Positions 3-64,000 of a stretch of DNA of 64,000 nucleotides are shown one piece after another (the stretch's first letter is position 1; each line of letters opens with the position of its first letter). The notes beneath the pieces are model-generated. The model was not told the DNA's origin. It saw only the letters and a program-made list of their open reading frames with translations, and did no database searches. The position numbers were made by a program, and so were the translations under genes. This stretch comes from Cliona cf. orientalis. Its lineage: Eukaryota; Porifera; Demospongiae; Clionaida; Clionaidae. The stretch lies in contig OZ005694.1 in NCBI GenBank assembly GCA_963930775.1, forward strand, positions 2,790,001 through 2,854,000, written 5' to 3'.

Positions 3-2441
3 GTAAAGGAAAACGTGAATAGAAAGGCGACTCTCAAGAAACAAAAAGTTGACTGGCTCTCCATTAGGTGGATACAGGTCACAAAGGACAAACCCTTTGC
101 ATTCAAGTATCGCTGCAGCTTAAAGGCATTGTGCCACGATATAAGGGCTATTTTTAGTAAATTAGTGTCACACGTGATGTAACCGCGCCCATTAGATTGA
201 AATCTGGCAGCCACTTTTCAATCAATGGTTGTAGTTCGCGGTAGCAGAACGCGATCGGTCCAAGAAAGGCTCAAGGGTTGGAGCTGGAAAGTCTTCAGCT
301 AGCGGGGGAAGGTAAGAGGTCTACCAGGGGGACGGGCGAGAGTCGGCCTTGCCAGAGTAGCGATGTCTATGTCTAGCTAGATCCACCACGTGCGAGGTGG
401 TATACCACGAGTAGATTTACCTTTAGCGAGGGCTAGTAGGTCGAGAAACAGACAAAGATACCAGTCCTATGGCAGCGCCACGAGTAGCTAAGTCCTTGCC
501 TTGTCCTTCGATGGCGTTCTGGAGTCCACGAGGAGCGCGCGACAATATTTTTGTACGTGCGCGATTTATCACCGTACACTAGGTCTAAAAATAGTAACAA
601 TCACCGCTTATATCGTGACACAATGCCTTTAAATAGCTTGGAGCAGTGGAAGGTGGTGGATGTCAAAAGGAAGCGACAAAGAGCTGCAATGTTCATTACC
701 ACCCGGAAGTGTTCAGAAATGGTTTGGACTGGTACAAAATCCAGCCAGTGGTGAAATGCACTCAACAAGCATACATTGAGAGACAGCTGTTTTCAATGGT
801 TGCATCAGCAGGGTATGTTCTTATGCTAATAAGACTAGTATAGGTAAAAGTAGTTAATACAATTATTGAATTTTTGTGTATTCAGCCATCATGCTTGGAC
901 TTCATTCGAGTCATGGGCTGAAGTATACAACAAAGTCCGTCAAGGATCTATAACAAGCAGGACTTTTTCCAAAAATATCCACTGAAGGAAGTATCAGGTG
1001 AGATTGATCAGAATGTGCATGACTGGAGAAATTATAACATTAAATAATATCAGAGGGCACAGCTATTCATTGCACTGGAGAGCTAACCCGCAAACATGTG
1101 GCCGAGGCATTCTGGAATGCAGAAGTTGAGCATGAACTGAGAACGAGTGATGTCAAATTCAAATTCACCGAGAACACTGACATGGATGCAGTAGACAGAG
1201 GCCGAGCAAACAGTCCTTATGCACACACCAACTGCTCAGAAGAGTGCAGAAAACGAGGTAACTTGACCCTATACTATAATATAGTAATGTTCATGGAATG
1301 GAGTCTATATAATATTACTATACTATGCATGGTGATAATTATGTACAGAAAAATTATGATAATCTTTGCAGGTTGTGGAACACTTTGGTCGCTTAATGGC
1401 AACTGGAAGCTAACATACCCAATTTGCATGTATCAAGTGCCCAAGAGTGTTCCCTTCGGTGGGACACTGCAATATGTGAATTCTTGCCCAAAAGCAGCCT
1501 GCGCCAAACATGGCTTTTTGCGTCGAGCACTGTGAGATGGCCAAAAAGCAGCAGATTCCTACAGAGCTCCACGACTATCTGAAGTACACCAACAAAATGA
1601 CTGCACCCAAAGCCCGAAAATGCCAAACTAATGACGTAGATCTACAAGAGATTGCTGCCGATTGCCAGGGTATAGCTTCTTCTGCAACAATTTCTTTCAA
1701 CAATGCTGAACAGTCACCCAAACCTCCCAGCTGTGGTAGACTACACGGATGAAGAAGAAGCAACAATGACGTCATGCAACTAGGACACTGGAACAAGAAA
1801 GAAGGTGCAGAAGTGGACAAGAGGCCACCTTTTTGTTGTTCGTGGTCGTGGCCACATTGAGACCTAGCAGCCTTTGTACCAGTGAGTCCTGTTGTCTTGA
1901 CTAGCAATAGGGCAATAATGATACAATAATTATAATCATATAATATTATTCTTATGTTAATAGATCAGAAGGACCAGCGCAGGTCTTCTTGATTGTTCTG
2001 GTGTGGATGCTGGCAGCGTTTTCTCGCATGACCAGAGGAGATAGACAAAAGAAAATCTTGTCTTATGACAACATGTGTCATTTAGACAATTTGAAAGTGG
2101 CAAAAAAACCACTGCCACTGCCTGGAGATTGGTAGCATATGTGGTTGGATATAACAAAAATTATTGACAGCCTGCACATTGCCAACCACAAGGACAGAAG
2201 GTGTCGGGAGACGTACAATCCACAACTCAAAAAAGACCATCCGCACATGAATACTATGTGCTGCGAACAAATATTTGCTTGGCTATCGAGATACAAAAGG
2301 ATCTTGAGTTCGATGCCAAAGACGCATCATCACGTTTATTTACATCGTATGGTGAAGTGAAGAAACGCGTATATTGAGAGATGCTACATGCAAGGAAGAC
2401 GACCAGTGGTGCCGAACGTGAAGGCCGCGCATCCCCAGTGA
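3..2441 (+). pseudogene. KDZ-type transposase gene, decayed copy
   Basis: Broken coding remnant of a Kyakuja-Dileera-Zisupton type DNA transposase. It aligns block by block with the copy at 58937-63834. Recognisable blocks are a Cys-rich N-terminal segment (3-119, resumed at 633-840), HHAWTSFESWAEVYN (about 890), VAEAFWNAEVEHELR (about 1100), GCGTLWSLNGNWK (about 1375), a Cys/His block FCVEHCEMAKK (about 1512), RGHLFVVRGRGHIETWQPLY (about 1820-1880), the core motif SYDNMCHLDNLKVAKKPLP (about 2063) and the C-terminal block ending at a TGA at 2439. Introns near 843-880, 998-1053, 1257-1373 and 1882-1963 sit at the same positions as in the other copy. In-frame stops (after GDW near 2133 and after YLHRMVK near 2358) and frame changes make it non-functional. 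The DNA at 124-628 is a later insertion. The gene runs off the left edge. The family call rests on conserved motifs and is fairly secure; the exact KDZ subgroup is not. Confidence 0.75.
124..628. mobile_element. TTAA-flanked inverted-repeat element (piggyBac/Kolobok-like MITE)
   Basis: The ends are inverted repeats beginning AGGCATTGTG[C/T]CACGATAT, and both ends are flanked by TTAA (120-123 and 629-632). TTAA duplication is typical of piggyBac and Kolobok elements. It encodes no transposase. It splits the Cys-rich block of the KDZ remnant: the reading frame before it (..FKYRCSL) resumes after the right TTAA (NSLEQWK..). Removing the element and one TTAA joins the frame. Confidence 0.8.
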
Positions 2442-37663: not shown

Positions 37664-39452
37664 TTACAGAGGATTCTCTTCAACTGTTGTAGGATCAATG
37701 TGCTTATTAGCTTGGTATTCTTTATCCTTAGTGTCATCAAGTTTTTCATCAAGTAAAGTTTTCTTTATGATCCAAGCTGCTATCGATATCAAAATTGAGG
37801 GAAGAAGAGAGAGTACTGCCAGTGGAGCTGAACTGACTACAGATGCCCTTCCAATTATGAGTGAGTACAAAAGTCCAAAAACAAACAGAAAAAAGTATAA
37901 AAACATAAGAGTAATTAAGAATCCAATAGCAAACTTAGTTATTGAATGACATCTATCTTTACTGCAACAACATCTATCCTCACAGTATATAAGCACTTCG
38001 ACTTTTCTAGTGAGATACGTAATGACATACACCATAAATAGTACAATGAATGTAAGCATAAAAACAAATACACTTATGACCCTAATTGGGTATGCAAAAG
38101 CAAGTATAAAGGCAGGAAAAAAAGAATAGAGGAGAAGATAGGAAAAATAAGATGAAACCCAAATAAAGGGATATTTTCTAAGGAGATGAAACAGATGACA
38201 CAAAAAAATTTTACAGAAATCACAACATTTTTTTTGGTTATTATTATTTGTGTCATTCTGCCCCTCAGGGTCACCCTGTGGAGGTTGCATTTCTATATTA
38301 TTTTTATTTTGATTCTGCTTCAGAGAGACACACTTTGAGAAAAATTTATGCCCTATCATGATGCCTACAGACGCAACTCCAGGAATGCAATAAACTACTG
38401 TGGAGGTAATCACATACACAGCAATAACTGGATCTTGAACAGCTTTAGACCAAATGCCAGCCATAATAATTTCAGCCACCAATTCCAAAATGATAAAGAT
38501 AATCATAACAATTGCCAAACCATTCACCACATCAGTGTTTCTATCAGTGAATTGTTTCATTCCTTCTTCACTATGAATTTTTGATTTAATAAAGAATGCT
38601 GTTGTGATACATAATGCATAGAGTGCGATTGAACTTATCGTATAAACGAGGTAGAAAGGAGTGTATGATGCATCCCTGAATCCTTGACCAGATACTCCAC
38701 TCTGTGGTAAAGAAAAGCCAACGAGGAATGTATTTCCACTATCTTGAAGAACATCACTTAGCCCAGCATAAACTCGTAACTGGAAGTATAATATATATTT
38801 TAATTTAATAGCTTACTTTTGAACTTAAGAAAGATAGACTTACCAAAGAATTAAAGTCCTTCAGTGCAGACATGAAAATGTCGTCACTAGGAATACAGGG
38901 AAGAGATGGGATATGAAGGTGAATCCGAAGCGTAGGAAGATCGTATGTACCATCCCACAGGAATGTTTGTGCTTCAGGTCCTCTGTCGGATCCAAGAAGC
39001 TCGTAGAAAATTCTCAATAGTCCGAAAGGTAACTGTATTTGCATAAAATTCAAAACCAGCGGATGGACCACGGTGAAGACTCCACTTGAAGTCCATCCAT
39101 AGACCACTGTTGTCTCATTGCTCAGTATGTCACTAGAAGAAGGTGAAATGCTATTGCAGAAATCCATCTCTGTATGCGTTACATTATATACAACTCTTAT
39201 TAGAACAGGATGAGCATTTGGTGCGTAGAAGAAGGCCTTTCTAAGTCGGTATAAATTTTCTTGATCGTCATTAAGGGCATCTTGAAATTGTTGAAATAGT
39301 TTATTGCAGATATCCACATACGCTTCATTATCGTCACAACCACACACTGCTACTGCAAATAGAGAAGCAAGTATCCAAGCAATGAATTCGAATAATATAA
39401 TTTTCTTCATGATGTGACTGGACATTAATTTTATATTAGCTTTCAAAGGCAA
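37664..39452 (-). CDS. Multi-pass membrane protein with secreted N-terminal domain, unknown family
   Basis: A two-exon gene. Exon 1 is 39452-38844 and exon 2 is 38779-37664 (stop), joined in phase 0 by a 64-base gt..ag intron. The likely start is the third in-frame ATG (about 39410), because it opens directly onto a signal peptide (MKKIILFEFIAWILASLFAV). About 240 extracellular residues follow, with Cys residues and N-glycosylation sites (NVTH, NETT). Then come about seven hydrophobic helices: FYLVYTISSIALYALCIT, VVNGLAIVMIIFIILELVA, VIAVYVITSTVVYCIPGVA, a loop with CCDFCKIFLC, then four more to LLPSILISIAAWI. A polar tail (DEKLDDTKDKEYQ) ends it. The layout resembles a receptor or channel, but I recognise no GPCR or channel motif. 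The gene looks intact. Confidence 0.85.
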
Positions 39453-39547
39453 AAATAGTAGCTATTGATCCTCAGCTTCTCTACTCTACTAGTATAAAGC
39501 TGAATATACCTCCCTTATATAACCGGTGCCAGTGGCGTATCCAGGAT

Positions 39548-45184: not shown

Positions 45185-45430
45185 TAGCTCAGGTAGGTGC
45201 TATATAAACACAGACCGGCAACATCTGCACAGAATGCACTGAGTACTTTCTCTCAGACGACCCTTTGCCATACTTAACGACCCTTACCAGTTAACAAAGG
45301 GAGGTTGCGACGGACAGACGGACCATAATAATAATTTTATGGTCCGTTTGTCCGCCCATAGATAATAAAGAAAAATCGCCAAACGATTGCAGTAACCCTC
45401 CGCCTACGCTTTGCGGCAAGGGGTAATAAA
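45185..45430. mobile_element. AACCCTC-family element fragment
   Basis: Shares ATCGCCAAACGATTGCAGTAA and GCCTACGCTTTGCGGCAAGG with the copies at 60624-61142 and (inverted) 56378-56890. It contains a short palindrome of GGACCATAA..TTATGGTCC. Confidence 0.55.
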
Positions 45431-45532
45431 TAATTATGTCTAGTAATTTATAGCTGGAGAATCTGACGTACTAATACTTTTATAATCAACGAATAGCTTC
45501 AAATAGATGGCTAGAATACTATTAATTCGGGG

Positions 45533-45660: not shown

Positions 45661-47935
45661 TATTGTTATTCTGTAATGAAATGCAAGGATACATGAGATA
45701 GCCTAAGCTAGTACACAGCATGTAACCTATATTATTATAACATGATGCACTAATAATTGAAGTTAATGATTAAGAGCAAACTTAAAAGCAGCAATTGAGG
45801 TACTGGAATGAGTGCTTGAGGGTAGAGAGTTCCATGCATCGATAGTACTGGGAAAGTACGACTTGCCAAACTGATTTGAATGGAACTGAATTGGCATAAG
45901 TGAATGTTCTCGAGATGATCTTACGGCATAATGGTGGGTCCGATTAGCGAGTGGGGCGTCTGGAAAATAAGTTTGAGCATTAGCTATTTTAAAAAGATGG
46001 CAAAGTTTTGCTTGGTGTCGTCTGGACTCCAGAGATGGCAGGTTGGTTATAGTTAGTAGGGTCTGATAATCCTGGTCCCAAGATTTTGTGCACATTTTAA
46101 GTGCAAATTTCTGCACATCTTCAAGGGCAGTAATGTCCTTTTTTAAATAGGGGTCCCAGGCAATGCATGCGTATTCCAAGTGGGGTCGGATGAAAGATGT
46201 ATATAACTTAAGGAGAGTTTCAGATGAGGAAAACTTATAAAATTTACGATAGATCAGACCAACTAATCTTCTGGTTTTATTGCAGATTTTGGAAATATGT
46301 GATGACCACATAGAATCTAAAGTAATCAGGACACCTAAATACTTATAGCTGGACACATGTTTGAGAGGAACATCATTCAGCATTAGTACAGGGGGATGAA
46401 TAGAGTGTGATCTCTTCCGGGAGAGAAGGAGGTAGCAGCATTTGCTAGCATTAAGCTGAAGATGCTTTGATCCAAGACAGGAACTAACAGCAGTGATGTC
46501 CTTTTGGAGAATGGTGTAATCGACAGATGATCTAATGATTCTGTAAAGGGCAATATCATCGGCGAAAAGATTTATATTGCTATCAGGATGTATTTTGTTT
46601 ACAACATCATTAATGTAGATGATAAAGAGAAGTGGACCCATGCAGCACTGATCCCTGAGGGACTCCAGATAACACTTGCAAAAGATTGGAAGAACAGCCA
46701 TTGACCACTGTAAATTGCTCCCTGTTTGTCAGATAGCTCTGTATCCACTTCAGGAGGAGGGGATCCAGACCTACATCCTTTAATTTTTGGAGTAGAGGAA
46801 TGTGTGGCACAGAGTCAAAAGCTTTCTTGACATCAAAGAATACAATACAAACTTCTTCACCGGAATCTAGAGAACTGAGCCAGTCATGATAGACAGAAAA
46901 TAATGCTGATGTAGAGGACCTGTGGTGCATGAAACCCCATTGGTGTTTTGAAATTGGGGCATTATCTGCTAAGAAAACTTCAATGAGTTCCTTTACATGA
47001 CGCTCCAGGACTTTGCTTACAATAGGTAGAATAGATATGGGCCGATAGCCAGTTACAGATGAACTTGGAGAATCGATTTTGGGAATAGGAACTATTCTAG
47101 CTGTTTTCCACTCACTAGGGAATGTGCCACTAGTTAAAGATAGATTAAAAAATTTAGTTAGACTTGGTGCAATACTGTAGGCACATGCTTTCAACATTCT
47201 TGCAGGGATATTATCGACACCGGTAGACTTTGATGGGTCAAGGCTGATGAGCATGTCTGCAACAGTGTCCTCTGTACAGAGGAACTCTTCTGGAAACTCT
47301 TGCAAATCAGTATGTGACAGATGGGATCGAGGCAGGACTATGAGCTTCACTCAGTGGAGGACATCGACGATTAAAGCATCCGAAGAAAAATTCGTTCAGC
47401 AGCTCTGCTTTACCTTGGCTGGAGTTAATCGGAAGGCCAGCCTCGTTGTTTAAAGATGGAATTATTGTGGAGTTGTTGCTGTTCAAACTTTTGATGGATT
47501 TCCAGAAGCCTTTTGCATTCGAGGGATTTAGATTTTGAAAGTATTCTTCCTTTCGAGAACGAAGTAATGAGACAACGGTGTTTCTTTGCTGCTTATACTT
47601 ATCATGATCTAGCTGACTGCCAGTGCGCTTGTACAACCGGTAGAGTGACTTTCTTTTGCGAATGGCTTTCAAAACAGTGGAGTTGATCCAAGGAAGACTT
47701 TCACTGCATACAGATGTGAAGTGGGGATGAATCTATGCATGATACTCATAAAATGGTTTTTCCAGCTTTCCCAACAAGTATCCACATCACCTGAAAGTAG
47801 GAGGTCCCAATCGGTGCTGTCTAGGGAGTCAGAAATACTAGCATAGTCGGCAAGTGCATACTTCCAAACCTTTCTTGAGACAGCTTTATCTGAGGCCTTG
47901 GCAGATTGTATCTGTGGCCTTGGCAGATTGTAAAT
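45657..47935 (-). pseudogene. 5'-truncated non-LTR retrotransposon (CR1/jockey-like LINE), reverse transcriptase
   Basis: Read on the minus strand: a pre-RT region (about 47880-47310, SDSTDWDLLLSGDVDTCWES, then KRKSLYRLYKRTGS), then a full reverse transcriptase with DPSKSTGVDNIPARML, VPIPK, YRPISILPIVSKVLER, FFDVKKAFDSVPH, LSGVPQGS, GPLLFIIYINDV, the catalytic FADD (about 46555) and SSYKYLGVLI, ending at a stop at 45763. A frameshift near 47345 and a four-base insertion (GCAT, about 46640-46643) inside the SGVPQGSVLGP motif inactivate it. The endonuclease is missing. An AATAAAAAA-like tract near 45660 may be the 3' end. Confidence 0.85.
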
Positions 47936-48159
47936 AGCCTAGAGACCGAACCGAGGTGTATAACGGACTTGTACGATAGGCTGCTTGATTTGAGGACACG
48001 TTTTTGATGTAATAAATATTGTGATCATTCAATGTTCACACTGGCAAAGTAGTAAGTAGTTATCTAGGTATAGCTATATATACACACATTCAAAACTGTC
48101 ACAATGTAGGTACGTGCAAATTCTCCAATTGGCTAAATCCTATTTATAAACACTGTCTT
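47936..48159. other. No recognised feature
   Basis: A short spacer between the truncated LINE and the minisatellite. Confidence 0.4.
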
Positions 48160-48164
48160 ATGTT

Positions 48165-48850
48165 TCTTATGTTCACAAATGTAGAAATGTTCATAATAAT
48201 ATTGTTAACACATGCTACTGTAGATAAAAAAAAAACTTTCTTAAAGCCTATAATACATGTGCATGTACTGTCTTGTGTTCACAAATGTAAAAATGTTCAC
48301 AATCTTAATAATTATTATTGTAGGCCTGTGCAAACCTCTATATAGCTATAAAGCCTGCATGCATGTGTATATACTATAGATATACTCAGTCTGTACAAAT
48401 CTAAAGATCAAACATGTTCACAATGTTGTGCCAACATCAACATATCACAACATGCATTTAGATATTAAAGTCAAAAATGTTCACAAGCATCTAAATACAA
48501 CCATGAGATAAATCTATGTTCACAAACTTGAAAATGTTCACAATGTCATGCAAACAGTTAAATAATGTATACCCATGAGCCAGTAAGTAAATTATTAATT
48601 TTATATGTTCACAAACTCAAAAATGTTCACAACAATATCATGCAAGCATCTATTATAATATAGATACTATCACAACCATGCATGAGGTAAATTTATGTTC
48701 ACAAACTCGAAAATGTTCACAATATCATGCAAGCATACATCTAACCATACAAGAGCTAAATTTGTGTTCACAAACTTGAAAATGTTCACAATGTCATGCA
48801 AGCATGCATGAGCTAAATTTATGTTCACAAATTCAAAAATGTTCACAAAA
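48165..48850. repeat. Degenerate minisatellite built on GTTCACAAA
   Basis: Units of about 60-80 bases, [A/T]TGTTCACAAA..[T/C]GAAAATGTTCACAAT, often with ATGCAAGCAT, repeat about eight times with strong drift. It lies just downstream of the ATPase-PHD gene stop, in its presumed 3' flank. The open frame at 48670-48876 is a translation of the repeat. Confidence 0.7.
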
Positions 48851-48987: not shown

Positions 48988-51900
48988 TCAATCATTGCAC
49001 CTTTTACACAACCACTCAATAACAGTTTCTGCCTGCTTCTTAGTCACACTGACACATTTCTGATGATACCATTGTTGACAATTATCACATTGTACCATCC
49101 TGATCCCAGCCCTGTACCTCTTGTACAGGCAAATATCCTTGGGACATGTATCCTTATCAATGTGGGCATCTATAAATTTAAATTATAATGAGAAAGGTGA
49201 GTTAATTCACTACGTGTGAGCTCCTTCCCCACCCCAAAATCTTGAAATCCGGGAGATTGTCTGGTGAACTGTGTATTTTAACTATAGTCAAGTCTATAAA
49301 GAGCACTTCACTGCAGCTGGAATTATATTATGTACTCAAAATATGTAATGCACTTAAAGTAGTCCAATAGTACGCTTAAGAGTATAGGCAGCTTGTAAAA
49401 TTGAAGCAGTATACTAGCTACATATTATAGCTTCTACGTGGATATATGAGTGGGGGGGGGGGGGGGGAGGGGGCAGGGAGAGGGAGATCGATACTTTATA
49501 TTATTCTAATCTCATGCAGCAATGTTAAAGATGAACATTAAAATTTTAATGTGGATTTCGTGTAGGTGATACCTTGTGCTGATACATTAGATGCAGTGTG
49601 TCGCGTACTTCTCATCTTTGTTCTGGTGAGCTGATTAAGGAATCTTGAATTGTCTATAATAATATTATCAACATACAAAAATAATGGGGTTAGTAACCAT
49701 CTCAGTGTATCACGCATGCATGCTCAAGGGGTAAAGCATTCGGTCTATTATAGGTATTATGCAGAGATGAGCATCCTATGATACAGTTTCCACATCTTGG
49801 AGGGCTGTTGTTTTCTCAACAACAACATCTTCTTTGCCATTCCTATAGCATACAATACCAGTAAATTATTTAAATACAAGCATGGGGGACAAGCAATTAT
49901 AAAGTGAGCCCCCGATTATTACATTAGAAGTGTGTACACAATTGCATGTACAATATTCACTGAATACAGTAGAGCTCTGTAGAGCACATGCCCACATTGC
50001 ATCACATCCTGGTGTTGCTCACAAACTCTCTATAGCACTAGCATTCTGAGCGGAAAGCATGTGGGTGTGTTTGATAGGGGTCAGCTTTGTTTGATTCCAA
50101 GCCAAGTGAAGCCTAATTTTTCTGCAGCGTTAGATGCCAGGGGGTTTGATCACCGTTGTAGTATAAATCACCCAGGAAGTCTACATCTCCAGACTAGGCC
50201 GTTTTTTGTGCCACCAACAACTACGACAGCAGATGGATACCTCGGTAGACTGATTACTTTGCCCCTTGGGCATGTGTGTGGGGTAGCTAATTACATGCAT
50301 ATAGTATGTTTATAATACTTGGTGTTTGTGTGAAGCTGTGTGCAGATGTATCTTTAGTAGATAGAAGACGTTGTAGAACTATTAGTATCCCAGGTTCAAT
50401 AACCAGGTGCCGCAGGCCACAGGGCAGAGTGTAACTATTACAGGCAACTATGGACGGACAAATAGACAGACACCAGACAATCATAATCTTACGTAATACC
50501 TCTGGAGATGCTTCTTGGTGGTGTTGCTCCAGCTTGTAAGTATAATCTAGCCATAGTGCGTTGTCGCACATTCCTATCTATAAGATGTTAAATGAACACC
50601 CAAGTATTAAAATTAATTAGTCAATTAAGTTTAATCTGTTACCAGGTAACACCACTGTGCCTATGTGACATAGTATAAGATGTATACGTATTGCACCACT
50701 CGTGCCACATGCGATGGCCTAACTAGACAAACTGCATGCATGTACTGATGTCATCATAATCACTCAGCAATATAATAAGCTATCGAGCCTAGGCCAGTAG
50801 AGTCAAACATAGGCACTCTAAATTCAGATAGTCATCACTTCTAGCTTGCATATGATTTCATATAGCTACTGTGCAATTAAATAATATTATAGTCATGTCT
50901 GCAGTAACCATCAGACTGAGTGTGTTTTTTATCGACTCGAAAGAACCAAGTCGCATATCATCATAATTATCTCCCAAATGCAACATTAATTCTCAGCAAA
51001 ACCATATCAGATAAAGGCCTAGATGCTGCTTTTATATAGTATAACGGCTCACTGCATAAACCAGGTAGTTATGTGACTACTATAGCACATAATATATGGT
51101 AAAAAGACATACAGAATGACTACCGTAACCCTTATGCATGTGCACCAAGCTCAATAACTTACAACGTAGAGGAGTGGATATTGTTGTATGCATCCTCTTG
51201 GATTTAGAACTGTGGACATGTTTTTTCTTCAACATTGTAGCTATGTATGTGTGTATGTATTGCATATGTATGCATGCATACATACGTGGGTGCAATTATG
51301 TGTATATAATTAGCTATAGTTACTAGTGTAGCTACATGTTCTGTATGATACTTATTGAATCACCACCAAAATTAGAGGGTATACATAAAATTTGTTTGTA
51401 ATAATTATTGTTATTAATTCCACTATATATATATATTGTGGATTTGAATGAGGGAGGTGCTAAGCCATTCTGAAGCGTGTGCGGAAATTATGATAGGTTG
51501 TAGCTACCAGTTATCCATTGGTAACAATTATTATCACTGACCTCGAGCACATTATTCAACATGCTTTTGAACCACACAGTATAAGGTAATAAATATTGCA
51601 GTAGTACCTGAATCATCAACTGTACACGGTACAGAAGCTTCCAACACTCCACTGCCTGATATAATTGAGTCATCAAAGGAAAGTCCTACAAAGATACCCA
51701 CGAGATAAGTAAGCAAATAGCTACCCGATTAAGTAATATAGTTACATGTCTAAAATTAACGCACAAGTTTTTATAGTAAGTACTATGTTGTATAGAGAAT
51801 TATTAAGCAACTAATAATTGTAATAGCTATACCTGAATCTTGGAAATACTCATCATCACTTCTTAAACGAAAGTGGTCATCCGATGCATCAGATCCAGAG

Positions 51901-54900
51901 GTTGAAATGTCATCAGAAACATCTCCAATCACTGTGGACTGGTGGCAAAAATTGGATCCCTCTGTGTCAATTAGTGCAATCGTTATTATAAAGCAGAGTT
52001 TACAAATGCACTGAAAATAGTTGTCCATGCTTTACATTAGTAGTTTAAGAGAATGCTATCCAAGGTCACATTATAATAATATTATGAGGTTGTTTTCTCT
52101 ATGTAAAGTGTTTAAGTTGATTACTCAACAACATACGACTAGAATGCTGACTCTCGCTTTGATGCACGCGGCTCTTCGTCTTATCACCTATAATTGAGAA
52201 AAGGGTATTATTATTATAATATCATCGTACGAATCTTCGGTAGCTATGATTCTATCTGAATAAAGCATGAGGTCATAATAATATTATTATAGAGAAATGA
52301 GCTAGCAAATTAATGCAAGCTTATTTCTTGCATGCAGTGATCATGATGATCGCAATTACAGTATTTAAATTCTCTAACCATGGCCAAAATAAAGCAGAAA
52401 ATCCTCTAACATTTGATCCTCCGGAACACAAAGGCATCCCTTGCAAACAGATTGAGTACGCTGTATCTTCTTATCTTTTACAATGATACCGGCCTTGAGA
52501 AAATATTGCTTCATCCTGGGTGCACACTTTCTACTCTTCTTGGCCTTCTTTCTGATTATCTTAGCAGATTTGTGGTTGATGCCATGTTTATCAAGGTAGT
52601 TGATCAGCTGTGGAATCCTGATAGCTACTCCCCGAATCATACCCTTGGCATTAGGAGGATGCATGGTAGTTGATACTGGGTGCTACAAAGGTAAGAAACT
52701 GGAAAACAAATTATAGCAGTCAGCAAAAGTATCAGATATTATACCTACATGTTATAAAATTAATATTATTGATACCTGTAATGCACCACATGCACACTCG
52801 ATACATAGATTATGGGAATGTGTTGCAAAATTATCTTACATAATACAGCAGTACCAAATACCATTTAATAAAGAAATTAGTGGACCACTAGTACAATAAT
52901 ACAAGTACAAACCTCAGACATGACTTTGATGCATGGTCTAGAGCTTCATTTAATAACTTCCCTAAGTTGCTGCTCTGTGTTTGGTCACCAGCGACAAAAT
53001 GTGACTGCAAATTTTTGATAGCAGGCACAATGGAGTTGAGAAAGTGATCCCAGATACTCTCGGCTGTGACACCTGCACAATTGGCCCTGACGGCAACCTA
53101 TAAACAATAATTATTTTACACATAATTATCAAGGGATCAGCACCTATATAATAACAGATGAGGCTAATAGGAAGTGGTTTTTTATTATGAAAGACAGTGT
53201 ATTAATGTGATATAGCAAGGGAGATGGTATAGATGTATAGAGTTGATGATTATAATGCTTGATAAGATTTTCAGATTTACTGCTAGAATAATCACCAGAC
53301 ACCATAATTATTGCAAGCATGCATAAAAGATTAAAGTATATTATGACTTCATACCTCTTGAGCACACAGTATGGTCATTGCGTATTGTATGGCTAGCCTT
53401 CCCTCCAAGCGTCCTCCAATCACTTCCTGTACTTTATCTACCATTTGGCATATATTATATCACTTTGTGGTAGGAGACTCAACCATTTTCCAACGGAGAT
53501 AGCCTCGGGGATAGCCATATATGCCTCACCAAGCATAGCATCAAGAGCACCAACCTTGATAGATGGTGCTTCATAAATGAACGGAATCAGGATCACCCTG
53601 GCAAGGTACCTGAAATAATAACACTGCATAATAATATTATGTAATTATTATTATTTATGTATGTTGACATGCATACAAAGAATGTATAAATCTAGAGTGT
53701 ACTTCAAATTATTTCTAACTTCATTATGTAATCATGTATGGTGCATATAATACTAGGTACCTACAATCATTTTACTGACTCCATATTATTGTAGTATCAT
53801 ACCTATCGTCAGCTTTTGCTAAACTGTCAATGACATGCTCATTGCATGTTATAATTGGGGTGCAGCGTGGAGTAAACTGACATCGCCTGGTTCCTATTTC
53901 TGTTGCACTAAATGCATTCATGAGCAGAGGTTTCAATACGATGTCATCATCAGGATCATCATACAAGAAAGGAAGGTTACCACTCAGGTGAACCCTGGCC
54001 ATGCTGTCAGTCATGTACGTCAGGCATCCCTTTGGATAATTTCCACAGCATCCGACAGCCAACTTAGCTAGGTTAGTTTTCCCTCGGCTTATGGAACTTG
54101 TTGCAACAGCTACTCCCACTGATCCACACTGCGATACCATCATCTCATGATTCATTGAGATAATGGCTGAACCTGAAGTAAATAACATTGTGACACATAA
54201 TGTGAAATTCTTAGCTACCTATATTGCGGTAATAGGAGTGGAATAATAATTAATTAAACACCATACATTTACAATGAGTGATAATTAATCCTTTTTAGAG
54301 TGTATAGAGGTTCTCAACGAAAATATGGGAAATCAATTTTGGAATTTCAATTAGATTATTATTAATTATTTACAGAGAATCTACTATATCACTATCATAG
54401 CAAACATAGCAAATTAAGCATACTGTAGTAGCTAGTATACTACTAGTTGCTACAGTTTAGTATAATTGTTTTAACACACCAAGTAGGTACACTCCACTAA
54501 GAACATTATCTCCAGAAATAGTGCGCATCCTGCCACGATTTTAGTGAGATGGGTGAACGAGTGGTCAGATAAGGGAGGCAGTGGATTAAGTGGCCGTTGA
54601 AGCTTGTGAAGGATCTCATCAATCCATATGAATCTTTGGTCCTCTGCGGGTATAAGATCTCCATTATCTGTTACCTGAAAGTTGGGTCCGAATACAAAGA
54701 CATTCGAGTTTATCTGACGTCCAGTACATGTCACTGCATCATACTGTGTGGTGCTATCATCACTCTCATCATCACTATCCTCTAATCTATAAGGATTATC
54801 AATGATAACACAATCATCGTAACAAAGACACTTATATGGACAATAACAGTTCTTACTGAGAAAGCAATACTGATAGTATGGGAATTTGATCAGCATGTAT

Positions 54901-57900
54901 TAAAATTGGGTAAATACGTTATCAGCCTCATCAAATCTGGCAAGTTTCAGCTATACCTATGTACCGGCATCATAGGCAAACATAGATGTACTCTTGTGAG
55001 GATAACTCACTCATAGAATTGCTGGCACAGATGCATCAGAAATGACTTTGTCTGGGATACTATCAGTTGAGCTGAGAGTGCTCCAGATGGAATGGCTGGA
55101 CTCAAGTATTGCATAAGTTGCTCTGTATTTGGTATTTTATACCATGGCAGAAATGCCTCCCTGTATCATCATAAGAACCAGATGGAATACACTTATACTG
55201 GTCCACAGATACAATGGCATGAGGTATAGGCTTGGTACTTGAAGTAACACTTATGTAATGATAATTGCAAGTTCAATCTCTAAGGTATTATGTAACTTTG
55301 TTAAGTTGTACCAGGAGTACATTACTAGGAGTGTGCAACCCACATAATAGTAGTACAAACATCTCTTTCCAGATTTGACATCACAGAATATCATTAATAT
55401 GCAACCACTAAAACCATGAAGCCATGAAGGTTGTGTCTGCACTGTCCTATCAGTAACTAGCTGCAGCTGCATCTATACAGAATGTAACTCAGTGGTTGCA
55501 ACTTAAGTACCTTCTAATGATATTCAGGCCCACGTACAAGGGTGGTTGTGATATCAAATCTGGAAAGAGATGTTTGTACTACTAATGTGTGCGTTGCACA
55601 CTCCTAGTAATGTACTCCTGGTTGTACCAAGGGCTTATAGACCCCAGAGGGGGAGAGGGCACGTAACTGGCACCTGGCAAACTTCAAATCCATGGGCTAA
55701 AAATAGTAAAGTCCACATTATCAGTCCATAGCACTAATGCAATCCAGACAGCAGCTGTTACTATAATTAGTTACAAACCACTGTCTGATTTGAAGTTTGC
55801 TAGGTACACTATCATGTATGGCAGTTACATGCCCTCTCCCCCTTTGGGGTCTATAAGCCCTTGGTTGTACTGAGTGTGAATTGTCTGAAAACAGTTCTAG
55901 GTGTATGTGAATTGTATAAGTGTGATATCTTCTAGAATGTTCTGTGTTCTCTATTTATGTAACACTTATGTAATTGTAATTGCACAACACTTATGTAATA
56001 TTGTAATTGCACGTTTATTCTCTAAGGAAATTAAAGTAACTTCATTAAGTTGTACTGAGTGTGAATTGTCTGGAAACAGTTCTAGGTGTATTAAGTGTCA
56101 TATCTTCTAGAATGCTCTGCTTTCTTCTTACATACAATAATCAAACCACTAGCATTAATTATGTTCTCGATCAAAAATTACCCAAAACAATTTGGAGGAG
56201 CTACAGAAATTCTCCTAAAAATACGTCCCAAGGAACTTGGTGTGTTAAATATGCCCACTCATTTATCGTGCTTCCACCCCAAATTTTTATCGCTGGACGA
56301 AACCCTGCTGATTGCATTCATGATATAATAGTTGCATCTAGCTAGACTCTACTAGACTATTAACACCTGAATTTTCTTATAGTAATTAACCCTCGCCGCA
56401 ACGCGTAGGCGGAGGGTTACTGCAATCGTTTGGCGATTTTTGTCCGTCCGTCCGTCCGTCCGTTTGTCCGTCCGTCCGTATGGTAAGGGTCGTCTGAAAG
56501 AAAGTACGCATCTGAGGATTACCAGGCATCAAGGAAGAGTGGTCACGTTAAGTCCTGCCCAGTGGTATAATAGTGTGCAGCTGTGGTTGCCATTCTGTGC
56601 CTTGCTGGTCAGTTGTCAATGCAGTGACAGTGTAAACAGGCAGTGGCTCTCAAGTGCATATAATTGAGTTTAAGTAGTCACAGTTATTATAGTGACATAG
56701 GCAGGGTATGTATATTATAATAGACATACATACTACCATATTATGGTAGTATGTATCTAGTTCAATACTCCTTATATTGAGAAGGCATATACACACTGAG
56801 ATATGCTAGCTACTATAGATCTTGTATACATGTGCATGAGTCATGCATGCATGTAGCGGTGAGGGTTTTGCACTCCTGTGCATTCATTAATACCAGGAGT
56901 ACATTACTAGGAGTGTGCAACGCACACTATAGTAGTGCAAACATCTCTTTCCAGATTTGACATCACAACCACCCTTGTCATGGGCCTGAATATCATTAGA
57001 AGGTACTTAAGTTGCAACCACTGAGTTATACATTCTGTATAGCTGCAGCTACAGCTAGTTACTGATAGGACAGTGCAGACACAACCTTCATGGCTTCATG
57101 GTTTTAGTGGTTGCATATTAATGATATTCTGTGATGTCAAATCTGGAAAGAGATGTTTGCACTACTATAGTATGCGTTGCACACTCCTAGTAATGTACTC
57201 CTGTTAATACATAGTAGATTACCTCATAAATACCATAATAATATTTATTATGATTGGTTTCATTATAGATTACACCGTGATTACGGGGAGTATAATAAGC
57301 GACCATTTGCTCTACTTGTGTGATGATGAAGTATTATGTGTTAGTTATGCAATCATAACCATTACAATGTCATTGTGCATCTTGTTTTCCCAGTGAGTAC
57401 ATGTAGGATTCAGAGGACAATTGCAATGCAGTTAAGAGAAGATCAAGAGACAGAGAATGCACAAGTTACTGACCAATATCACATAACTATAAACATGTAT
57501 GTATGTATACAAGTGTCTGGATTCAGAGAGACCAGCTTAGGTATAATGCAAATTAATTTTATCAGTGTGGACTTAAGAATGTATGCATATGCACACCTTA
57601 TAATTACCGGGCGACCTAAATAACTGTACTCCTAATAATAATTATTTGAAAATAGAGCTTACCCTTTTACTACAGTAACCCTGTCTCCACTCTCACTCTG
57701 ACGACATCGCTGTCTCTGTGAGACCTCAACAATGAATCCAGAATATTGTGGTAGTTCTTGTGGTGGTCTTATATGTTTCAAGAGTCTGAGCCCAAAATTA
57801 GACAGCTTATGGAAAGTTTTGTTATTCCCTTTTCCTTTCCAGTGGCCAATACAATGGTCTTCCTGGACGATTTTCATCTAAAGTAATGGTATAGCTACTG

Positions 57901-58877
57901 GTATTAATACGTACATGACATTGTTACAGTAATAATTTATACAAGTACACTTACTTTTCAAAACGGTATCAGCTTGCATGCAGATGCAAAAACAATCCGC
58001 TGGTCGATCCGGCGAGGTACAGCGAGCTCTCGATTTATTCTGTTGCTTATATATATAATTATAGCCATCATGGGCAAAAGGAAACGGAAACAGGAAATGG
58101 AAAGCTGAAACGACAAAAAAAAATTAGGAAATGGTCGTCATTATTTCTTCCGCTAATGGCACCTTTTGTGCATACGCTATTTGTTTGAGGATAAATTAAG
58201 TGCCAGAGTCTTCCTCTTGAAACTACAGATAAACGTTTCATAGTAGCCAATTGGCTGGCAACAGTACATCACCTATTTTGTGGAGGGTTGAATACGACTA
58301 GCTACCTCAGTACAAACAGCAGGAAGAGCCCCAGTATGGGCAGTATGGCACCGAGAATGCAAGATGTTGAATGCTAGACCAAGCAGTAGAATTTATATAG
58401 ACGTCACTGAAAGATGTCCATGCAGAGAGATAAATCAATACTAGGCAGCTGAGAGCCTCTCATCATGCAATTATACTATATAACATTATATATATTATTG
58501 CTTGGCTGGTACGTACAGAGTCAGCACATAAACTCATTGTCAACTTTCATTAATTATTTCCTATGAATGGCCAGATACGTATAGTATCACACTGATCGAA
58601 GATGTCCATCAATGTAATATTCTGACCACCATCACCAATTTTCATCTTTTTGTGACTTTTCCGTTTCCAGCTATCATTGACTGCAATGGCACTTGTACAT
58701 GTATCTTTAAAACCGTGAGAGAGAAACAGAGAATACGTATCAGGGACAACAATTCATAGACAATAGATAACAGAGCATTTATTTTATAAATGGCTGCACA
58801 AATTGAACACATTAATTTTACATACACAGGACGTTGCGTATACAAAGGAAGGAGAAAACAATTGCAATGCTATTCAT
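48988..58877 (-). CDS. P-loop ATPase (SF3/DUF927-like) with C-terminal PHD-type zinc finger, many exons
   Basis: Exons read on the minus strand: 58680-58579, 58104-57955, 57877-57663, 55160-55011, 54855-54480, 54172-53803, 53609-53355, 53097-52909, 52682-52379, 52187-52137, 51961-51833, 51685-51608, 50577-50500, 49842-49785, 49643-49573 and 49169-48988 (TGA). A possible first ATG lies at 58877. Blocks: LYWPLER; NVFVFGPNFQV; NVLSGVYLLG; a Walker A-like SSISRGKTN with S where G is usual; Walker B-like LPFLYDDPDDD; a sensor-like TPIITCNEH; RYLARVILIPF. An acidic, Ser-rich section and a basic section (RNVRQRTMARLY) follow. It ends with CPKDIC..CDNCQQWYHQKC..WLCKRC, a PHD-like C4HC3 pattern. Most junctions agree in phase. 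Single-base frame breaks near 57825, 54530 and 53440 mean the copy is damaged or the sequence has indels. Helicase-like DNA remodelling is inferred. Confidence 0.75.
49452..49467. repeat. Run of 16 G
   Basis: Uninterrupted G tract inside an intron of the ATPase-PHD gene, followed by further short G runs, so a four-stranded structure is possible. Confidence 0.85.
55312..55620. mobile_element. MITE with 7-bp target duplication, family CAGGAG, copy 1
   Basis: A 309-base element. The ends, about 85 bases, begin CAGGAGTACATTACTAGGAG and are inverted copies. Flanked by GTTGTAC on both sides (55305-55311 and 55621-55627). It lies in an intron of the ATPase gene. Copy 2 is at 56894-57203. Confidence 0.85.
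55628..55863. mobile_element. MITE with 7-bp target duplication, family CAAGGG
   Basis: A 236-base element with inverted ends CAAGGGCTTATAGACCCC, flanked by the same GTTGTAC (55621-55627 and 55864-55870). It lies directly next to the CAGGAG element and shares one copy of the duplication with it. The related uninterrupted target is at 56049-56055. Confidence 0.85.
55988..56110. repeat. Local duplicate containing the empty insertion site
   Basis: This block (ACACTTATGTAAT..TCTCTAAGG..TTAAGTTGTACTGAGTGTG..) matches 55246-55310 plus 55864-55945 with the two elements removed. A single GTTGTAC is present at 56049-56055. Confidence 0.8.
56378..56890. mobile_element. AACCCTC-family element, copy in ATPase intron
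   Basis: Ends AACCCTCGCCGC (56386) and GCGGTGAGGGTT (about 56854-56870) are inverted. Just inside the left end is a run of TCCG repeats (about 56443-56480). The same element in opposite orientation lies at 60624-61142, in an intron of the KDZ gene. Confidence 0.65.
56894..57203. mobile_element. MITE with 7-bp target duplication, family CAGGAG, copy 2
   Basis: A 310-base element, flanked by TTAATAC on both sides (56887-56893 and 57204-57210). Its interior is in the opposite orientation to copy 1. Confidence 0.85.
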
Positions 58878-58936
58878 TGTACTGTAAATTGGGGGGAAAA
58901 TCTGCTAGGAAATAGTACTATAGAGGTGCTATCGGC

Positions 58937-61900
58937 CTATATTATAGTGTCACTCTTTGTGATCTTTGGGAGCAATGGTTTCTTTCCATTCATATAGCAT
59001 TTGCTCGTGTAGTGATTCCTCCTCAACACCATCCGGTGTAGGTAGAATAAGTGATGTACTTTATTCATAGAGCACAAAATATGGTGGAAGCGGTGGACCC
59101 ACACGAACGTTTGCTCACCCACTTGGGTATTAAAATCAGGATGCTCCTCTTTTAATCTGGCAGGAGAGAACTTTCTTTGGCAGTCTGGCGAAACACGATT
59201 CTTGAAATGAAACACATCTATCACCTTCCGGACATCCAACCATAGCTTGTCTAGGGGTGGTGGGAAAGGAAGTGGATTCTGAGCAACCTTCAACTTTGCG
59301 AGATTACACATGTTGTCATACGCCAAGATGACAGACTGTTTTTGGCCATCGTTTTCCTTTGCTAGAGACAGCAACCACTGAACAAGAATGTAGTATACCT
59401 GGGATGGAGACTCAGACCTAAACAAAGTGTGTACGCATGTATGTGTATGTGCGTGTGAAAGAGAGAGTATGTGGATGTGTGTGTATGGAAGGTTCAATTA
59501 GGGAATTTGTTGTATCGCAATAGTGATAAATCCTCATACAGGATCACTTAACAGCCCCTTGACGGTATTAATGAATGAATCACTAGTTTAGTAACGAATA
59601 ACCTGATTGTGGAAACCTGCAATAAATATTAAGCATAGAGACCATTACACGAGGTCTCTATTATATTATCTGATTTAGAATTTTAGGTCTCTATATGTAT
59701 AATATTATATATACCTGTACAATGGCTGAAATGCATCAATATGGCCACCTCCCCGAATAACAAACTGGTGACCTCGTGACCACTTCCTCAGCTTTTTAGC
59801 CTGCCCTATATTTTTTCGACAAATAGTTTCTGATTCATCACTATACACTGCATTTTGAAGTAGCTCAGGATGGCTTTCAATCAGGGTTGCAGTTCCTATA
59901 GTAAAGCACCGAGTCATCTAATCACGTAGAAATCTCCTAAACAATGTCTAATTATTACAATGTCATGTATTTAGACTGTTTAGGCAGTTGTGTATATGAC
60001 TTACAAGATTGTAGGTAGAATTAGTGTCTATTATATAGTAACAGTTGTGTTTCAAAATTAAGTTTTAGACCACCCCCCCCCCCCCCCCCCCCCCAAGATC
60101 TCAGCAGCACAATAATAGAGATGATGATTGATAATTAACCCTTTCATGGGCGGTGCCCAATTTACTATGTCACACCCATTGGGCGGGGATTTTAGCTATT
60201 TTTGCTCATTTAGCAATAAGCACCAGCAGGCAGTATAAGCATATTCATAGACACTCTTCTTGTTTGAGGTCTCTATGGGCCTTCCCTTACTGCTAGGTGG
60301 CTTCAGGTCATGACCTTCTGTAATAGCTACAGTACACAGTGCCATATACATGAACGGTATTTGTAAAATGGCGGTCAAGTATGACTCTCAAACGGCGCTT
60401 TTTTGGTGCAAAGGTAAGCACTATAGCTATATCACTTGGTTTAGAGTTAGAAAAGGACCAAGTGACCATGAATATGAAGTAAATTTGCCGTTGGCTTACA
60501 CTTTTTGGTCAAGCGAGTCGATAAAAACGGCCATTTGTTGATGGTGCAGAAATGCTCCCTTGCCCATTCAATCAATACCACGTGTGGTGCAAAATTGCTC
60601 CCTTGCCCGTGAAAGGGTTAATAAATGCACAGGGGTGCAGAACCCTCACCGCTACATGCATGCATAATAGCATGGCTCACTGTGTATATGATACTGTGTT
60701 TGTTCAATACTATCAGGAGTATTGAACTACGTACATACCCTACACCTGAGTTCTAGTACTGCTCTCTTCAGGGTCAGTGATCTAAGAGTTGGAGAAAGCA
60801 CTACATGTCTATAAACACAAAGCCAGAATTATGCACTTGAGACCCACAGCCTGTTTACACTGTCTCCACATTGACAAGGGACCAGCAAAGCACAGAATGG
60901 TAATCAGTAATGTAGTTGAGGTAGGTGCCATGTAAATACAGACTGGCAAGTTGCAACAGCTGCACACTACTACTCCACTGGGCAGGACTTAACATGATCA
61001 CTTTTCCTTTATACCTAGAATGCGTACTTTCTCTATGACGACCCATACCATTTAGCAAAAGAGGGTTGCAACAGACGGACGGACAAAAATCGCCAAATGA
61101 TTGCAGTAACCCTCTGCCTACGCTTTGCGGCAAGGGTTAATTATCCCTAAGTTATGTAAGGGCAGTAAAATCCTGAATGAAGTAATCGAGGGTTCTAGCT
61201 ATAGTGAGCCTTAAGGTCTTCTAAATCACGTAGAAACCGATTAAACAGTGTCTAACAACTTAAGATCCTAGCAACAATGCCTAAAAGTTTGACATATAAA
61301 CTGCTGCCTAGTAACAATCCTAACCACAGGCAACAATTTGTACAAGTGAATTATATAGAAATTATTTTACAAATTGTATAATATACTACCTGCTTGATCC
61401 AATCAGATTTCAGTATTTGGATGTAATAATTATGCCATTGCATGCACTGTAAGATCCAAATGTATTATTGCTATTAAAATTAATGTACATTTAATTTATT
61501 GTCTATGATAACACCTGTATCATAACTATTATACCGTATAGCGGGAAACTTTGGCGAGATTTTTAATTTGGCGATTTGGCGAATTTTAAAGAAAATCGCC
61601 AAATTAAAACTCGCCAATATTTAAATAACCGTATTTTTATGACGTAATGACTACGTGTGCGCATGCGCATGTGAACGAGAGCAGTGCAAATTCAGCAAAA
61701 TTAGATTGATTGCTCGCAACCATCGTTTGTCAGGAATCAATGTCGCTGCTCAAGTTCTTTCAGGTTAAACGTCCGACGCTACCTTCGTCATCAACATGTG
61801 CCTCGAACACAACTCTCGATCTGACACGTCTCCATTTTTGATAGCTGCTAGCTAGCTCGACGAATGGAGTGGCAGGCCGGCCAGCAGCTCATCCATGCAT

Positions 61901-63834
61901 TACGTCACTTGTTTATCGCGTCATGCGCTTGCGCTCACAATTTGTCAAGTCGCCAAATTTAAAATTCGCCAATATCTTTAAGGGAGTGATTCGCCAAATT
62001 TAATGCTCGCCAAATTTACCCGCTATACGGTAATTTCCTAAAGATGGACTATACACACATATACACACCTTGAGAAGTAGATGCAGATTCTCCAACACTA
62101 TTATTCTGCACCATAATTGACTTCACCACTCTGTCTACTTTGTCAGCATCCCCTGATGTTGCAACTGAATCCTCATCATTGTCTAAAAAATATAATAATA
62201 CATGCATGTACTTACTTATAGTCCTGCACTACTAAATGTGGTGTATATAATTGGTTTCGCTACACTTGCCACTACAAATGAAGCATTATCGTGCAGGTGC
62301 CAATTATCTGCATGCAGTTATCAACAACTGGAGCTACCACTAGTATACATGCATAGTATAGTTGCCAAATCATGTGCAGATGTCATGATCGATGTGTTAG
62401 TATGATTCATAATCAATGTTTTTTTTGCGGTCGTGTCAAGAATCGTTAAGTTTATGTTTCTCATCGTGAGAGGAGAATCATCAATCATGGCAAGTAAATA
62501 ATGCCGTATCTCTCAAAGAAAACATTTCCAGCACATGAATGTTAACCAAGGAGAAAACAAGGGGAGGCTTATACTAGGCAAAGGGGCAGCGGGATATTTG
62601 TGGGATGCTAATTACTATGAGTACACGGATATTACCTGCTTGCACGCCACAATACTTCAGGAAGTCCTTTAGCCCCAAAGGAACACCAGGAGCATCTCTT
62701 TGCAGGAGTTCACAGTGCTGGCGACAAAATGCTTTTCCACGCTCTGGAGACAGTGTACATACATCAGGCAGATGTATAGCGGGGATACTCTCCACTGATT
62801 GCTAAACAAAAATAATAATAATTTTAAAAAAAAAGTGGTATAACTTAACAACTATTTGAAAATTAATGTGGGAAGATAAACAATAGATATACTGTTTGGG
62901 GGGGGATGGTATTGGGGCCAAGGGACGCTATACAAATCGAATGTACTTGTATAATTGTAGCAATGCTGATAATTGTAAGCTATATGTAAGGTACAACATG
63001 ATTGCATAATAATAATTATAATTTTATGTATCCACATGCAACATACCACAACTCGAAACATGCAATGTGGAAACACGACTTTCCAGATTCCATCAGTTAC
63101 CCACAGATGTCCACAACCTAGATGTACATATAATTTTGAGATATACTTCATCTATATATAGCATGAATATAAACATTTTCATACACCTCTCTTCTTGCAT
63201 TCAGATGTGCACATATCTGCATCATGGGGATAAATTTTCTGTCTTCGTAGTTCCTCATGCACTCTTCCCGGCTGCTGTCCTTCTTGAACTTGTAATCAAT
63301 CCTGCCAATCCTCCTTAATTCGTTCTCAACTTCGCCATTGTAAAATGCTTCACCAACTATGCGAGGACTCAATTCTGCAAGAAGTAATATCGTTATATTT
63401 GTACACTCACTCTGATACTATGTACCTTTATCAGCTGGTATACAGAATGTGTCATTGTAACTTTCAGCAAAGCCTTGAAATGATACCCATGAATGATTGC
63501 TACACATGGAATATTTATAAGTAGATAGACAGAGAGTACTAGTAAGTAAAAGATCCATTTTCAATCATGGTACTAGGTATACAAACCTGTAACCAAAATT
63601 ACCATCCAAACAAAAAAATTATACTTACGCAAGACTACACTGCAATTCCAACATTTCTCGAGAAAAGAAAACAGTATCAGAAACTTCGATGAATCTTCTT
63701 GGATGAGGATAGAACCGAAATCCATCTTCATTCTTCGTTCCAAATTGTGCATAGTTGTATGTCAAGCTACAATGCTTACATCGAAGTGTAAATTTGGTCC
63801 CTTCAATAAAACCATCTAGTGTGTAGCATTTCAC
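58937..63834 (-). CDS. KDZ-type DNA transposase, multi-exon, 5' end beyond the window
   Basis: Exons on the minus strand: 63834-63629, 63499-63426, 63374-63187, 63117-63047, 62801-62636, 62182-62069, 59895-59715 and 59417-58937 (TAG), giving about 494 residues in view. A Cys-rich N-terminal block (RCKHCSLTYNYAQF) is of the CxC kind found in KDZ proteins. NHSWVSFQGFAESYN, GEAFYNGEVENELRR, CGHLWVTDGIWK and KAFCRQHCEL follow. The core carries SRGHQFVIRGGGHIDAF, LAYDNMCNLAKLK, VIDVFHFKN and VGEQTFVWVHRFHHIL; their acidic residues are the likely catalytic set, with GEQ supplying the last one. It should cut and move DNA in the nucleus. All junctions agree in phase except exon 3 to 4, where one base is missing. 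Intron 6 (2.2 kb) holds three repeats. Far better kept than the copy at 3-2441. Confidence 0.82.
60073..60094. repeat. Run of 22 C
   Basis: An uninterrupted poly-C tract, G-rich on the minus strand, in the large KDZ intron. Confidence 0.9.
60135..60621. mobile_element. TAA-flanked inverted-repeat element (Harbinger-like)
   Basis: Ends TTAACCCTTTCA[T/C]GGGC are inverted copies, flanked by TAA on both sides (60132-60134 and 60622-60624). It is 487 bases long with no coding capacity recognised, and lies in a KDZ gene intron. Confidence 0.7.
60624..61142. mobile_element. AACCCTC-family element, copy in KDZ intron
   Basis: Inverted relative of 56378-56890. Shared blocks include AGTCCTGCCCAGTGG, CAGTGTAAACAGGC and TCTCAAGTGCATA (all read on the minus strand here). 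It adjoins the element ending at 60621. Confidence 0.65.
61532..62032. mobile_element. TTTGGCGA-family inverted-repeat element, copy 2
   Basis: Ends TACCGTATAGCGGG are inverted copies, followed inside by repeated TTTGGCGA and TCGCCAAA blocks. It is 501 bases long with an undefined target duplication. A shorter relative is at 17879-18064. Confidence 0.75.
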
Positions 63835-64000
63835 CTGCATGGTTACAAAAAATCGTGCAGTTACTATGGAGACAAAAATTGTATGCATTCACAAGGGATA
63901 AAATTATCAGTTGGGTAATTTCGTATGTGCTTAAAATAGCCATTTCTACTAGTATGATGAACCAAGATACTGTATAATTTCGCTGGATAAAAATAGGAGC

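Follow-up and report, generated by a model that had tools for sequence, protein, structure and literature searches.

Does this sponge locus hold a single transposon that carries a transposase together with a second gene joining a replication-type ATPase to a chromatin-reading finger, or do unrelated genes merely lie side by side? The question is raised by a 64,000-nucleotide stretch of Cliona cf. orientalis DNA (contig OZ005694.1, positions 2,790,001 to 2,854,000), which we call the window and whose positions we count from its first letter. A gene for a KDZ-type transposase (copy 1) runs along its minus strand and is followed downstream, on the same strand, by a gene for a P-loop ATPase and then by an exon for a PHD finger, beyond which lies a dense repeat array. 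We tentatively favour, as close to an even call, the reading that these are the parts of one decaying copy of a DNA transposon, in which a KDZ-type transposase and a plasmid-type helicase ATPase ending in a PHD finger would be encoded in the same direction; that reading would place both genes in one element and the ATPase and the finger in one protein.

The ATPase gene, its plasmid relatives and the PHD finger

Sequence similarity ties the ATPase exon to plasmid-type primase-helicases, namely to their helicase domain, a kinship that is new information on this locus. The P-loop segment (53775..54218, minus strand) contains a Walker A-like SSISRGKT, a Walker B-like PFLYDDP and a sensor-like IITCN, and thus bears out a sequence-only reading of this DNA that had placed an ATPase gene with such motifs downstream of the transposase on its strand; the core from P-loop to sensor 1 is present. 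A tblastn search of 72,556 plasmid records (E up to 10) returned a single match, a Gloeothece ‘bifunctional DNA primase/polymerase’ at E 0.8, and a pairwise comparison gave an E of 1e-6. The exon is 33% identical to a Crocosphaera protein over query residues 34-118, and hhalign gave a probability of 80.1% with two relatives and of 93.7% (E 2e-7) with four.

The kinship is also found when bacterial profiles are run against the window. With a six-sequence profile of diverse close members, the ATPase exon ranks first of 2161 window segments at E 1.8e-7, and the runner-up is an upstream exon, 54474-54899 (E 0.75, not significant alone). With a 14-sequence profile, the exon is again first of 2161 six-frame segments (E 6.2e-4, the next at 1.7), the 54474-54899 segment is third (E 5.8), and the best reversed segment, in a control that covers this profile only, has an E of 2.4. 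The larger profile leaves out L005, from the same contig as L004, and L011, for which a wrong 47-amino-acid frame had been picked; it contains one duplicate, as the core of L007 is identical to that of a Nostoc plasmid protein. Without L007 and L003, the exon still has an E of 1.1e-3 and the next segment 1.7. The profiles contain no window letters, but their members were fished with the window exon as bait. The profile positions matched by 54474-54899 precede those of the P-loop exon, in order, and those of 57877-57662 are also in order, weakly. When nine window pieces were compared pairwise with the Gloeothece core, the P-loop exon alone was clear (z 11.9, reached by none of 300 shuffles), and the remaining eight scored no better, or little better, than shuffles.

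These relatives are uncommon: among 386 genomes of the phylum to which the Crocosphaera genome belongs, 12 matched at E up to 1e-3, five of them strongly, the source included. Three of the four bacterial proteins scanned match the Prim-Pol domain at E up to 1 (the Gloeothece protein above the Pfam cut-off, Crocosphaera L004 below it). DUF927 (PF06048) matched no window piece and one of the four bacterial relatives at 0.0047, below its cut-off. The ATPase exon had no match in Pfam, PHROGs, NCBIfam or PDB sequences, PADLOC returned none, and two bacterial queries against PDB sequences each gave one chance-level match (E 0.14 and 1.3). Viral contigs held no relatives of the exon, of the Gloeothece helicase or of either alignment, and no relatives were found in phages. 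Structure predictions were poor, with mean predicted local distance difference test (pLDDT) values of 30.5 and 36.7.

Compared with the cyanobacterial plasmid primase-helicases (Gloeothece WP_013325793.1, Nostoc WP_237997490.1 and those of the Crocosphaera metagenome-assembled genome contigs L003 and L004), the window gene aligns in the ATPase core, from the P-loop region to sensor 1, and also shares a colinear segment upstream of that core. It differs from them in its basic and acidic segments, its nearby PHD finger and its introns, and neither their Prim-Pol N-terminus nor their C-terminus was found in it.

The gene appears to be built of several minus-strand exons. A possible N-terminal exon (57662..57877) matches helicase-profile positions 17-38 weakly (E 0.22 among eight segments) and has a donor near 57661; a further possible exon (55010..55165) is an open frame that, by eye, is flanked by AG and GT and that has no profile match. 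Then come the colinear segment at 54474..54899 (profile 110-148), the P-loop segment, and two more exon segments (53644-53441 and 53097-52891), whose borders look like AG and GT sites and whose profile matches are not significant. Direct reading identifies a basic segment at 52682-52377, in which no Pfam family scores above cut-off, and acidic and serine/aspartate segments at 51972-51603. The sequence-only reading had suggested that the gene may begin at 58877, about 60 bases past the transposase stop. That start is not confirmed: we find the first, weakly supported, segment at 57877-57662, 1.06 kb past that stop, and the next one with similarity at 54899-54474, about 4 kb past it. Nested inverted repeats occupy 55302-57213 within the gene region (185-nt arms, 94% alike, with inner copies) and are probably inserted repeats. 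A separate repeat is common to 45371-45432, 56380-56455 and 61071-61143 (92-95% alike); a GTCC run adjoins the copy at 56.4 kb, and the repeat may represent one end of an element that the three places share.

The PHD finger, at 49158-48991, is encoded by an exon at 48988..49168 (minus strand) that matches PF00628 at 5.3e-11 (42.8 bits against a cut-off of 24), has C4HC3 ligands by reading and ends in a stop; acidic and basic segments followed by a PHD finger are thus as the sequence-only reading had them. The ATPase and PHD exons likely form one fused protein. They might instead be two genes or fragments that never yield an ATPase-PHD protein, a possibility that is compatible with the other readings and for which the 2.4 kb without recognised coding sequence between the serine/aspartate segment and the PHD exon (51.6-49.2 kb) speaks; given that the two share a strand and splice-like edges, and that a stop directly follows the finger, we consider it unlikely.

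The exon structure bears on another explanation, namely that the ATPase-PHD gene belongs to the host, or is a plasmid-type gene that was acquired in the distant past and then domesticated, upstream of which a KDZ copy inserted. Its spliceosomal-looking introns and its PHD finger, a eukaryotic chromatin domain, would suit such a gene. Yet the KDZ gene has introns too (by eye, both genes appear split by short GT-AG introns, in keeping with a eukaryotic source), and the ATPase frame seems to change near 54.53 and 53.45 kb, by eye and by the bacterial alignment. These two probable frame breaks suggest decay rather than a maintained host gene, and we regard a host origin as quite improbable.

The KDZ transposase gene and a second, decayed copy

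Copy 1 is a multi-exon KDZ-type gene that extends on the minus strand from at least 63840 to a stop at 58937, the end that the sequence-only reading had given it. A CxC zinc cluster is present: Pfam CxC5 (PF18718) matches at E 8.9e-13, from profile position 31 or 34 to 117, over the exon at 63629..63840 and the next exons. Because the match begins at profile position 31-34, the N-terminus probably lies further right, beyond 64000, and a start at 63834, as it had been drawn, is not confirmed. The Pfam model of the KDZ RNase-H-type domain gave no match to copy 1, nor to its C-terminal exon alone; the KDZ identity of that exon comes from the CxC5 domain and from 46% identity to a second copy in the window.

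Copy 2 (872..2440, plus strand) is decayed, with in-frame stops, and was recognised by colinearity with copy 1 and by its match to Pfam KDZ (PF18758, E 3.8e-8, profile 104-217 of 217). On sequence divergence, it belongs to another KDZ subfamily than copy 1. Six of the eight regions tested in copy 1 (R2-R5, R7 and R8, between 63513 and 58961) are colinear with copy 2 (872-2420), and nothing convincing was found for R1 and R6.

The first recognised exon of copy 1, that of the zinc cluster (63629..63840), has a gtaagt donor and no convincing match in copy 2. Four middle exons follow within 62635..63501 (about 63500-63425, 63374-63173, 63118-63046 and 62799-62635), each scoring above its own shuffles against copy 2, with edges near GT-AG sites by eye. 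A frame change is probable in the third exon of the gene near 63.23 kb, at a marginal level (second-frame score 45 against a shuffle maximum of 47), which does not bear out the earlier description of the gene as well kept. The penultimate exon (59712..59890) scores 162 against copy 2 (shuffle maximum 47), and the C-terminal exon (58937..59416), with YDNMC and GEQ motifs and the stop, scores 387 (shuffle maximum 52). Candidates for the catalytic D, D and E, picked by reading, are TDGIWK, YDNMC and GEQ. The KDZ exon had no match in the plasmid records at E up to 1 and no relatives in the viral contigs.

The repeat array, the element ends and the case for one element

If the two genes lie in one element, its left part would include an array of possible subterminal repeats at 48169..48850 (plus strand), in which TGTTCACAA occurs at 15 exact sites, spread over 48170-48848 on a single strand. 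The array starts 140 bp beyond the PHD stop, and six exact TGTTCACAA pairs are spaced 18 bp apart. Of all 9-base words in the window other than simple ones, the most crowded lies here (15 copies in 1 kb, against 7 for the next unrelated word), and three block-shuffled sequences contained no word with five or more copies. With one mismatch allowed, an 11-base form occurs 18 times in the window, and 15 of these occurrences fall in the array; 2.97 were expected, and none of 100 shuffles reached 18. The array pattern had no match in viral contigs or genome contigs. The exact reverse-complement site, TTGTGAACA, is absent from the 64 kb, so that a mirror array, if any, would be over 15 kb away on the right or over 48 kb away on the left. 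Placed to the right, it would enclose both the KDZ and the ATPase genes, which fits the one-element reading and is not proof of it.

A remnant of a non-long terminal repeat (non-LTR) retrotransposon, a long interspersed nuclear element (LINE), lies at 45763-48030, with RVT_1 matches at 7.9e-19 and 7.7e-10, frame breaks and an apparent 5' truncation. We set aside the idea that the array derives from 5' repeats of the LINE itself, since the LINE appears, by reading rather than by test, 5'-truncated near 48.0 kb. Duplications flanking the LINE were unconvincing, the longest common word being 10 bp (45423/48009).

Terminal repeats were scanned for as 14 bases with at least 11 paired, around KDZ copy 2, copy 1 alone and the composite, with a reach to the right of the KDZ exon of about 150 positions only. 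The right end of the element is probably outside the window. Neither an array nor a terminal-repeat pair was found between the KDZ and ATPase genes.

An element at 20512-22099 has 41-bp perfect inverted ends, many CATGCATG sites near both ends and an internal 22-bp tandem array, GGCGTATTCCATG; a short element at 25647-26541 has inverted arms of 87 nt (94%) and a palindrome, TCCGCTAGCGGA, near both ends in six exact copies. Each of the two (20512-22099, and 25694-26485 for the second) thus has its arrays close to either end and within inverted repeats; as their motifs are palindromes, orientation is not comparable with that of TGTTCACAA. Rfam at gathering scores and a transfer RNA scan in bacterial setting each gave 0 matches, and a promoter and terminator scan of 58-59 kb, with bacterial models unsuited to a eukaryote, was near shuffles. 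Two adjacent long minus-strand open frames at 37664-39461 read as containing membrane-like segments and match no Pfam family above cut-off.

The chief competitor of the one-element reading is that the genes are unrelated neighbours: the ATPase-PHD gene would sit in a mobile element or multicopy family of its own, beside which a KDZ element landed by chance. Insertions are dense here, as the inverted repeats at 55302-57213, the LINE at 45.8-48.0 kb and the repeats common to 45.4, 56.4 and 61.1 kb illustrate, and KDZ copy 2 has no ATPase neighbour. However, the KDZ and ATPase genes share a strand and are 1 to 4 kb apart, no end signal was found between them, and no exact reverse array site occurs in the window. 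We take a chance adjacency to be a serious possibility, if a somewhat doubtful one.

A number of observations weigh against a single element with a plasmid-type helicase. The pair is known from a single locus. Beside copy 2, no ATPase-PHD remnant was found, the pieces matching elsewhere in the window at chance level only (E 0.7-0.9); of the upstream side of copy 2, less than 1 kb lies inside the window, and copy 2 is itself decayed. Terminal inverted repeats flanked by 7- or 8-bp duplications did not exceed chance, the one match in six scans falling within shuffles, although Kyakuja-type elements lack such repeats in any case. The array may be an unrelated minisatellite; a simple minisatellite, the loss of one arm or ends that are not symmetric would all give this picture. 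An imperfect reverse site (two mismatches) lies at 48018, at the left border of the array, and the LINE adjoins the array on that side and blurs the left end. Frame breaks are probable in both the KDZ and ATPase genes, where the frame changes could also be assembly errors. The Walker A-like motif opens with S instead of G or A, and the bacterial C-terminus was not found in the window gene. A profile of four Prim-Pol N-termini had a best E of 5.9 in the window, and we therefore class the ATPase as a relative of the helicase domain only.

The sequence-only reading had suggested a KDZ element carrying a replication or chromatin helper, to be checked by a look for terminal repeats and a duplication enclosing both genes. 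The replication helper gains from the homology of the ATPase to plasmid primase-helicases, and the single composite element is neither proved nor refuted: enclosing repeats above chance were not found in the window, nor were element ends between the genes, which would have refuted it.

A proposed mechanism and its place among known systems

If the one-element reading holds, the transposase would bind subterminal repeats, the TGTTCACAA array among them, and so cut and paste the element, with recognition provided by the CxC5 cluster and the array. The helicase-like ATPase might aid unwinding or copying of the element DNA during transposition or gap repair. RAG2 binds marked histone H3 through its PHD finger, and the finger encoded here could, in a RAG2-like manner, tether the complex to such marked histones. 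By analogy, we infer each of these steps from family membership.

Known systems offer partial parallels. Fungal KDZ transposons carry TET/JBP genes and have 7-8 bp duplications (PMC12730594); Kyakuja-type ends are without terminal inverted repeats and have 7-bp target duplications, against 8-bp ones for KDZ (PMC12730594). In the fungal elements, as in the window, a KDZ transposase accompanies a cargo gene for which a role in chromatin silencing is proposed (PMC12730594), but their cargo is a TET/JBP dioxygenase and their ends and duplications have been shown, whereas the cargo here is an ATPase plus a PHD finger and ends were not found. The RAG1-RAG2 transposons (TransibSU) also place an animal transposase gene beside a PHD-protein gene, the Kelch-PHD RAG2L (PMC4411706); they differ in transposase superfamily, in their head-to-head arrangement in the purple sea urchin and in having no ATPase (PMC4411706). 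Accessory genes in Kolobok lineages encode nucleases or a RecQ helicase (PMC9587614). KolobokH with RecQ resembles the window as a DDE transposon with an accessory helicase (PMC9587614), but it pairs Kolobok with RecQ and has neither KDZ nor a primase-helicase ATPase. In fish proteins, F-box domains co-occur with the KDZ-type cysteine cluster CxC7 (PMC12062965). Among the titles and opening lines of abstracts that our literature search listed, none described a KDZ transposase paired with an ATPase-PHD gene, and we do not claim that none is in print.

A broader proposal, that the second gene of an animal KDZ lineage joins a PHD finger to a helicase ATPase of plasmid origin, a RAG2-like arrangement reached separately, is possible and, in our judgement, less probable than its opposite. 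The usual view of cut-and-paste transposons is that they rely on the host for DNA replication. If the one-element reading is true, it would point to replication and chromatin targeting as functions that some eukaryotic transposons bring with them. It would also add, beside RAG1-RAG2, another transposase paired with a PHD protein, and would connect animal mobile DNA with a replication family of bacterial plasmids.

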